A DNA stretch of 43,495 bases from Methylophilaceae bacterium. Its GTDB lineage: Bacteria > Pseudomonadota > Gammaproteobacteria > Burkholderiales > Methylophilaceae. The position numbers were made by a program, and so were the translations under genes. Of the stretch, positions 27,007 through 27,599 are shown piece after piece (positions within the stretch are counted from its first letter, which is position 1; each line of letters opens with the position of its first letter). The stretch spans positions 1-43,495 of the forward strand of contig RFPI01000005.1 in assembly GCA_009926205.1 (NCBI GenBank). Direction: 5' to 3'. The notes beneath the pieces were generated by a model, which was given only the letters and a program-made list of their open reading frames with translations, was not told where the DNA came from and did not search any database.

Positions 27007-27045
27007 TATTGTCTGCATTTGTAGGTATTCTTTCATTGATTTTTG

Positions 27046-27071
27046 GGGCGTATTCGAGTATCGTTACGCCC
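27046..27071. promoter_or_regulatory. Inverted repeat between lysC and tRNA-Ser
   Basis: GGGCGTA (27046-27052) and TACGCCC (27065-27071) are perfect complements around a 12-nt spacer, 16 bp before the mature tRNA-Ser. No T-run follows, so a terminator is unlikely; it lies where the tRNA promoter should be. Confidence 0.35.
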
Positions 27072-27086
27072 TCGCAACATGGCGTA

Positions 27087-27180
27087 GGAGAGCTGGCCGA
27101 GTGGTCGAAGGCACTTCCCTGCTAAGGAAGCATACGGGCTTAAACCTGTATCGAGGGTTCGAATCCCTCGCTCTCCGCCA
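27087..27180 (+). tRNA. tRNA-Ser (anticodon GCU)
   Basis: 94 nt with encoded CCA. Acceptor arms GGAGAGC and GCTCTCC pair over 7 bp; the anticodon stem-loop is CTTCC-CTGCTAA-GGAAG with GCT, decoding AGC/AGU; a long variable arm (around ATACGGGCTTAAACCTGTAT) and a T arm GAGGGTTCGAATCCCTC are present, all as expected for a class II tRNA. Its last 19 nt recur at 27342-27360. Confidence 0.97.
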
Positions 27181-27223
27181 AAAAGAGACAAGGCAAGGCC
27201 GCAGGATGTTTGGCGGATGGGAT
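27162..27223 (+). repeat. tRNA-Ser tail repeat, copy 1
   Basis: 62-bp exact direct repeat, first copy. It comprises the last 19 nt of tRNA-Ser (27162-27180) and 43 nt of the downstream flank, beginning AAAAAGAGACAAGGCAAGGC after the CCA. Confidence 0.97.
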
Positions 27224-27360
27224 GAGAACCCTCGAAGATATAAAAGTGGGTTCGACCAGCAAGCAAAGCTTGCGCAGGACGTCGAAGACGGTCTTGAGCG
27301 GTAGCGAAAGATGAGATTTGCGAATGATGCGCAAATCGAACAATCCCTCGCTCTCCGCCA
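27181..27360 (+). ncRNA. 180-nt tRNA-tail unit, candidate structured RNA
   Basis: The stretch from just after the tRNA-Ser CCA to the second CCA. It has no credible gene. It is rich in potential structure: GATTTGCG (27315-27322) and CGCAAATC (27330-27337) form a perfect 8-bp hairpin with a 7-nt loop, and GCAAGC-AAA-GCTTGC near 27262 forms a 6-bp hairpin. It would be released if the tRNA-Ser transcript is processed at both CCA ends. From general knowledge, the E. coli tyrT locus carries repeats of about 178 bp, each with 19 bp of the tRNA-Tyr 3' end, giving rtT RNA; this is the same layout on another tRNA. No sequence kinship is claimed. Confidence 0.4.
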
Positions 27361-27403
27361 AAAAGAGACAAGGCAAGGCCGCAGGATGTTTGGCGGATGG
27401 GAT
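27342..27403 (+). repeat. tRNA-Ser tail repeat, copy 2
   Basis: 62-bp exact repeat of 27162-27223 at an offset of exactly 180 bp, again containing the 19-nt tRNA 3' end with CCA, but without the rest of a tRNA. Confidence 0.97.
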
Positions 27404-27440
27404 TTGCAAGATGCCTAAGCAATAATGTTGTATGTTCGTG

Positions 27441-27489: not shown

Positions 27490-27566
27490 GCGCCCGTAGC
27501 TCAGCTGGATAGAGTACTTGGCTACGAACCAAGGGGTCAGGAGTTCGAATCTCTTCGGGCGCGCCA
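27490..27566 (+). tRNA. tRNA-Arg (anticodon ACG)
   Basis: 77 nt with encoded CCA. Acceptor arms GCGCCCG and CGGGCGC pair fully; the anticodon arm CTTGG-CTACGAA-CCAAG carries ACG (inosine expected at the wobble base), decoding CGN codons; T loop TTCGAAT is present. Followed by a strong terminator. Confidence 0.97.
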
Positions 27567-27571
27567 CTTTC

Positions 27572-27599
27572 AAAAGGCTCACTTAGGTGAGCCTTTTTT
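27572..27599 (+). terminator. Intrinsic terminator after tRNA-Arg
   Basis: AAAAGGCTCAC (27572-27582), TTAG loop, GTGAGCCTTTT (27587-27597), extended by more T. Confidence 0.92.

Follow-up and report, generated by a model that had tools for sequence, protein, structure and literature searches.

The structured repeat behind the tRNA-Ser(GCU) gene of a Methylophilaceae bacterium is, as judged from its sequence, a member of the family of tRNA-linked repeats (TLRs) and rtT known from Escherichia coli. We found it in a 43,495-nt stretch of contig RFPI01000005.1, here called the window. It is a divergent and new member, ordinary on its own. What is of interest concerns the whole family: the arms of a unit match its host tRNA, and GGA loops hardly occur in the window's order but are common beyond it.

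The window unit and its E. coli relatives

Positions 27162-27223 and 27342-27403 are identical over 62 nt, with a start-to-start distance of 180 nt. The repeat consists of the final 19 nt of tRNA-Ser(GCU) (27162-27180, CCA included) and 43 nt of flank, exactly as the first-pass annotation had described it. Sixty-two exact nucleotides rule out an origin by chance. The informative part of the repeat is the structured core between both tail copies (27218-27347). All features lie on the plus strand. The host gene (27087-27180, with the original tail at 27162-27180) was identified by ARAGORN and Rfam tRNA and is followed by a spacer from the CCA to the left arm (27181-27210), in which no intrinsic terminator was found. 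The left arm (27211-27223) resembles the reverse complement of the tRNA tail (TGGCGGA..GGGAT), and its GGGAT (27219-27223) pairs with ATCCC (27343-27347) to form P0, a pairing drawn from single folds. Then come hairpins P1 (27226-27253, GAACCC at 27226-27231 and GGGTTC at 27248-27253), P2 (27259-27273, loop AAA), P3 (27280-27290, loop GAA), P4 (27292-27311), and P5 (27315-27337, loop AATGATG). In the tail copy (27342-27360) all 19 nt are identical to the tRNA-Ser 3' end, and the second copy of the 43-nt flank (27361-27403), which ends in GGGAT, is probably the start of a further, lost unit. The next gene is tRNA-Arg(ACG) (27490-27566), followed by a terminator-like hairpin (27572-27597). A coding reading was rejected: the 129-amino-acid open reading frame on the minus strand (27033-27422) had no Pfam match at 1e-4.

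The gene order at the locus is alaS-like (PF01411), lysC-like (PF00696 and ACT domains), tRNA-Ser, unit, and tRNA-Arg. A DNA search of the whole genome, a 1.5-Mb draft in 104 contigs that is 96% complete, found the repeat here only, apart from a 21-nt match to its tail portion at a different tRNA-Ser gene. Two other members of the bacterial family with the same tRNA-Ser/tRNA-Arg pair (loci L009 and L010) carry no unit between both genes. In G024, a further member of this bacterial family, a second copy of the tRNA-Ser tail lies some 18 kb away from the gene (L011/L012, G024:C5) and is not preceded by a tRNA, as expected of an integrated island. For the counts below, we take the window's class to be Gammaproteobacteria and its order Burkholderiales, following GTDB; NCBI places the relative Pseudomethylobacillus (Methylophilaceae) in the Betaproteobacteria, Nitrosomonadales.

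The relationship to E. coli was established with two covariance models, R1, which was built from 15 units, the window unit included and none from E. coli, and R2, which was built from 97 units, one of them from E. coli. Each model had one match in the window's draft genome, at 27218-27347, beginning 37 nt behind the CCA of tRNA-Ser on the same strand; the scores of 102.4 bits (R1) and 78.4 bits (R2) are those of a unit used in building both models. The core is shared with E. coli members, since R1 found all four tyrTV units of K-12 (E values of 1.5e-4, 0.0079, 0.0081, and 0.029 in 293 kb). On seven E. coli stretches, R2 matched tyrTV, proK (9.7e-12 in K-12), rrnB (2.5e-6), and argVYZQ (8.3e-5, with the best match overlapping the end of argV), and it had no match at an E value of 1 at argX-proM, glnX, or proL. 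The Rfam model RtT (RF00391) gave the window unit 16.7 bits (E value of 2.2, over 27290-27360), short of its 45-bit cutoff, and reached that cutoff in other bacteria for units that follow tRNA-Gln and tRNA-Glu (L063, L097, L044, L088, L080, and L071). Because R1 finds tyrTV and RF00391 passes on units of other bacteria, one family is a better reading than convergence. The likeness to rtT that had been proposed from the window alone thus holds and is more than analogy, and the suggestion of convergent evolution that came with it is disfavored.

The unit resembles the E. coli TLRs, including rtT/RttR at tyrTV (RF00391), in its position behind a tRNA, its 18- to 19-nt tail copy, its period near 180 nt, its order of motifs and hairpins, and its R1 and R2 matches. 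The E. coli period, which the first-pass annotation had given as about 178 bp, is indeed 178 nt between tail copies at tyrV of MG1655. The window unit differs in its host, tRNA-Ser(GCU) in a Methylophilaceae draft, in its longer P1 loop and P5, and in lying far below the RF00391 cutoff. For E. coli, 22 TLRs at ten loci have been described, each with 18 to 19 bp of the 3' end of the upstream tRNA or rRNA (PMC8144298). We found the tyrTV unit in 4,687 of 5,426 E. coli genomes, at 1 to 14 places each, and the annotated RtT copies at tyrTV number one to five among the strains listed. In E. coli uk_P46212 (NZ_CP013658.1, L251), a cluster of genes for F390 synthetase-related, PAP2, sterol desaturase, and fatty acid desaturase proteins adjoins tRNA-Tyr where K-12 has the rtT array. 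RrA, RrB, and RrF, the TLRs behind 5S rRNA, belong to the same family by R2 (rrnB, 2.5e-6) and carry a copy of the upstream RNA's tail; as described in PMC8144298, they lie between two terminators and their GGA loops bind CsrA, whereas the window unit has no preceding terminator, no GGA loop, and no csrA in its genome. Arrc20 and Arrc21 of Actinobacillus pleuropneumoniae are likewise RtT-family RNAs beside tRNA genes and were detected on northern blots, but, compared by description, they lie upstream of Asn- and Lys-tRNA genes (PMC4986893). BIME/REP elements share the short GC-rich hairpins, and rtT similarity has been noted for some BIME-linked attenuators (PMC2965389), but the units studied here lie behind tRNA/tmRNA genes with host-matched arms, and we set them apart on these features.

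Fold, host tRNAs, and distribution of the units

The usual unit consists of a tRNA with CCA, a spacer that often holds an intrinsic terminator, the left arm, P1 (GATGAGAACC / GGTTCGAC), P2 to P5, and AATCC with the remaining tRNA tail. The left arm usually resembles the reverse complement of the tRNA acceptor strand and T-arm, P0 is the pairing of this arm with the tail copy, and the tail copy may be viewed as a T-arm whose loop is interrupted by the core. In the window, positions 27181-27360 fold at -65.4 kcal/mol, compared with -49.3 ± 4.05 for 200 dinucleotide-preserving shuffles (z score of -3.98), in agreement with the strong hairpins noted in the first-pass annotation. Compensatory changes, which it had also brought up, were seen across the family alignment: 36 of 39 pairs had changes on both sides, 89.9% of cells pair (97 units, 95 distinct), and the covariation score of the same 97 units was 0.388, against 0.115 ± 0.005 when shuffled and at most 0.074 in slid versions, figures that lean towards the drawn structure because the 39 pairs were drawn by hand from single folds and the alignment (A3) was fitted to them. 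RNAalifold on the first 15 units alone (A1) predicted only P1, P3, and P4. Free variation of relatives in length and sequence with no conserved structure, which the annotation had named as evidence against its reading, was not what the check revealed. Loops were counted with a simple perfect-stem finder, here and for GGA. Many are C(GNA)G triloops, with GNA in 110 of 197 triloops of A3; in P2 and P5 of the window's order, GNA triloops are rare (3 of 21). GNA triloops are very stable in single-stranded DNA.

The family extends far past its E. coli examples. When 61 genomes were searched at the DNA level, the core turned up after tRNA-Ser(CGA) in G060 and after tmRNA in G024; a further search contributed two more tmRNA cases (G050 and G013) and one at tRNA-Ala (G059). 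A pattern scan of a genome contig collection gave 18 loci, 14 of which carried a unit by eye and 4 of which looked like chance; ARAGORN identified an upstream tRNA or tmRNA for 12 of the 14, and the other 2 had only a tRNA/tmRNA end at the contig edge. In the model scans, at most 9 to 20 first-look candidates were scored per genome, out of numbers that ran into the thousands, and some matches were false, so the genome counts are estimates and absences are weak: 41 of 369 genomes of the window's class with R1 at 1e-3 and, with R2 at 1e-4, 137 of the same 369, 31 of 200 genomes of the window's order, and 58 of 299 genomes drawn from the phylum (37 belong to two families outside the class, the others to the class itself). 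False positives recognized by eye were seven identical places in G196 in the R1 scan, which had neither tRNA nor tail, and tRNA genes matched as units (L170, L152, L159, and one L130 match). The hosts found were Ser, Gln, Arg, Glu, Pro, His, Tyr, Ala, and Gly tRNAs and tmRNA. Neither the window unit nor an E. coli unit matched a phage at an E value of 0.01, and two viral pattern matches (L038 and L039) had no tail copy by eye. The plasmid search with the window unit returned two matches of 27 nt in Streptomyces, which we took as chance; that with the E. coli unit returned 25 records, each typed as non-mobilizable and several of chromosome size.

The tails of the units mostly corresponded to their own hosts. 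In a first set of 111 units (115 matches, less three L067 rows that duplicate L102 and the incomplete L049:1-87), 94 had an upstream tRNA or tmRNA on the same strand; 63 of these shared 18 to 19 of 19 tail letters with it and 72 shared at least 15, a level that tails of other amino acids reached in 1.7% of comparisons. A later set of 96 units (97 matches, less L135, which repeats L122) behaved similarly, with an upstream tRNA or tmRNA in 75, 18 to 19 shared letters in 39, at least 15 in 47, and 0.35% for other amino acids. This set includes six re-fetched training units (four L120 rows, L174, and L175); by hand count, 69 of the 90 others had an upstream tRNA or tmRNA, with 34 sharing 18 to 19 letters and 41 at least 15. 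The left arms paired with their own tails at a mean of 9.07 of 13 positions, compared with 7.93 ± 0.15 for permuted tails, and none of 2,000 permutations was as good. Some pairs of units from different families had cores 84 to 91% identical behind different tRNAs; in the clearest pair, with the hosts Gln(CUG) (G371) and Glu(UUC) (G290), both left arms are complementary to the tails of their own units. For different tRNAs, median core identity was 0.61 between families, 0.70 within a family, and 0.68 within a genome, and for the same tRNA within a family it was 0.76, in a comparison that holds two genomes under two labels with identical cores (L023/L174 and L036/L175). Since the within-genome value does not exceed that within families, recent spread inside genomes is not supported. 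Our search of the open-access literature found no report of such arm matching.

The presence of a unit also varies at a fixed place. Among 19 tRNA-Gln(CUG) loci of one genus outside the class, 11 had a unit match at an E value of 0.05 and 7 had none, with L230 left unclassed since it ends 117 nt behind the tRNA; remnants were visible by eye in L223 and L248. Behind the same tRNA in L234, where sister species carry the unit, lies a reading frame that by eye resembles a phage-type integrase. Degenerate second units follow one good unit in L032 (4747-4864) and L037 (4142-4290), suggesting decay inside arrays. In the unit-bearing loci of genus g437 that we inspected, the tail copy comprised only about 10 to 15 nt and had no CCA; thus, the tRNA-like 3' end is not always kept.

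GGA loops, csrA, and the transcribed strand

GGA was the commonest loop triplet in the unit set. Counting one unit per genome and tRNA (118 units), we found GGA in 83 of 238 loops of at least 4 nt, compared with 39.6 ± 5.0 expected, and TCC in 8. By hairpin, GGA occurred in 43 of 109 cases for P2, 40 of 114 for P5, and 12 of 160 for P3/P4; 35 units had it in both P2 and P5, and 60 of the 118 had no GGA loop. GGA in a hairpin loop is the motif recognized by CsrA (PMC8144298). Of the 369 genomes drawn from the class, 312 had a csrA gene (PF02599), as did 2 of the 200 drawn from the order. GGA loops in P2 or P5 were seen in 34 of 55 csrA-positive genomes and in 1 of 23 csrA-negative genomes of the window's order, a tally that assumes the same genomes in the csrA draws and the unit draws and leaves eleven labels unclassed. 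Likewise, 107 of 150 loops of at least 4 nt contained GGA outside the window's order (shuffle, 35.0), a group that also holds some unclassed labels, Betaproteobacteria among them, compared with 1 of 33 inside it (shuffle, 3.0). The GGA counts and the csrA tally hold the same two doubly labeled genomes as above. A simple link between csrA and GGA is nevertheless disfavored, because 7 of 8 csrA-negative genomes outside the order, partly incomplete drafts, have GGA loops and because the window's order is one clade. The CsrA score below 0.01 given in PMC8144298 for 19 E. coli TLRs in tRNA operons also counts against it.

None of the hairpin loops of the window unit listed above contains GGA, and its 96% complete draft gave no PF02599 match. 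Thus, this unit should not be a CsrA decoy at home. In L054 (G356:C44) and L043 (G179:C8), csrA lies about 165 nt before tRNA-Ser(GCU) and a unit directly behind the tRNA; in the window, no csrA was found within the stretch of alaS, lysC, tRNA-Ser, and unit or elsewhere in the draft. No report of family-wide GGA loops was found in the open-access literature.

First units began a median of 48 nt behind the CCA, and 75 of 119 lay behind an intrinsic terminator, compared with 108 of 2,380 shuffled spacers; the window's unit is among those that have none. RrA, RrB, and RrF are reported to be transcribed by read-through of the first of their two terminators, giving RNAs of about 173 and 115 nt, to be processed, and to bind Hfq and CsrA; RNase E cleavage at the tail copy was proposed for the E. 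coli relatives, and an early claim that a tyrT unit acts in starvation is described as withdrawn (PMC8144298). RtT members were also seen on northern blots of A. pleuropneumoniae (PMC4986893). By analogy with its E. coli relatives, the window unit may be expressed by read-through as well. In P2 to P5, GU pairs outnumbered AC mismatches (65 versus 34; P = 0.0024), which, together with the bias of GGA over TCC, favors the tRNA strand as RNA. However, GU made up 1.9% of paired cells, unlike typical RNA and compared with 6.4% in tRNA stems, where the comparison is confined to the GU fraction since ARAGORN brackets hold standard pairs only. The rarity of GU leaves room for a role at the DNA level.

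Competing explanations and meaning for the family

The explanation that we consider best, and on which our confidence is evenly balanced, is that the window unit is a TLR/rtT member with tRNA-matched ends that is read and folded as RNA and cut at the tail copy. RNA polymerase would run from tRNA-Ser through the unit, whose RNA would fold into P1 to P5 closed by P0, in which the left arm pairs with the tail copy. Because the tail copy is a tRNA 3' end, the enzymes that trim tRNAs could cut it, and the product would be a short RNA of roughly 120 to 180 nt in amounts that track tRNA transcription. In lineages with CsrA, the GGA displayed by many cores in the loops of P2 and P5 could serve as a decoy by capturing a CsrA dimer. 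We guess that a core might gain the arms of a new tRNA by copying at the conserved T-arm letters GGTTCGA / AATCC. Units that are absent or decayed in close relatives, and the short tail copies of g437, count against this RNA explanation. Also unfavorable to it are the low RF00391 score, the terminators before 75 of 119 first units, the rarity of GU, the 60 of 118 units that have no GGA loop, the GGA loops of csrA-negative genomes outside the order, and the low CsrA scores of the E. coli TLRs in tRNA operons.

A mobile or self-copying DNA element with no RNA role, in which a hairpin core inserts behind tRNAs, copies its ends from the target, and later decays, is a serious possibility that we rate clearly lower. 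It would account for the sporadic presence (137 of 369 and 31 of 200 genomes), for presence and absence at one tRNA-Gln locus within a genus, for cores 84 to 91% identical behind different tRNAs in different families, for the few GU pairs and the many GNA triloops (110 of 197), and for the terminator before most first units. Such an element does not lead one to expect the strong strand bias of GGA versus TCC in loops or the excess of GU over AC, and family RNAs have been detected in E. coli and A. pleuropneumoniae (PMC8144298, PMC4986893); moreover, cores at different tRNAs of the same genome (0.68) were no more alike than cores of the same family (0.70), and there was no phage match. We think it improbable that the units are scars or decoys of integrative elements, with the tail copy a remnant attachment site or a protection of the tRNA: although 18- to 19-nt tail copies look like attachment sites, and the integrase-type protein of L234 and the island-like cluster after tRNA-Tyr in uk_P46212 would suit such an origin, scars would not be expected to have a covarying core that keeps nearly the same size at about ten kinds of tRNA, and the left arm also follows the tRNA. 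Still less credible, and in our judgment very improbable, is the view that a tRNA end was duplicated in tandem independently and only looks like E. coli rtT. The 62-nt exact repeat is itself a duplication and the RF00391 score is low (16.7 bits, E value of 2.2), but the covariance models connect the window unit with the E. coli units, and the same motifs occur in the same order.

A broader possibility, which we put forward tentatively, is that TLR/rtT units form a large proteobacterial family of CsrA-binding RNAs, a moving core whose arms are rewritten for each tRNA and which would serve as a decoy tied to tRNA transcription, and that the window's order kept the scaffold and lost GGA. Under this CsrA-decoy reading, the window would hold a stripped form at alaS-lysC-tRNA-Ser, and in at least two relatives that possess csrA, this gene immediately precedes the same tRNA. 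The open-access literature that we searched contained no report of such a unit in the window's lineage. TLRs had no known function before the work on three of them, according to PMC8144298. The wider set provides two handles, the strand-biased GGA loops in two hairpins and the similar cores with host-following arms, and these make two old questions testable: what TLRs are for and how they get their tails.
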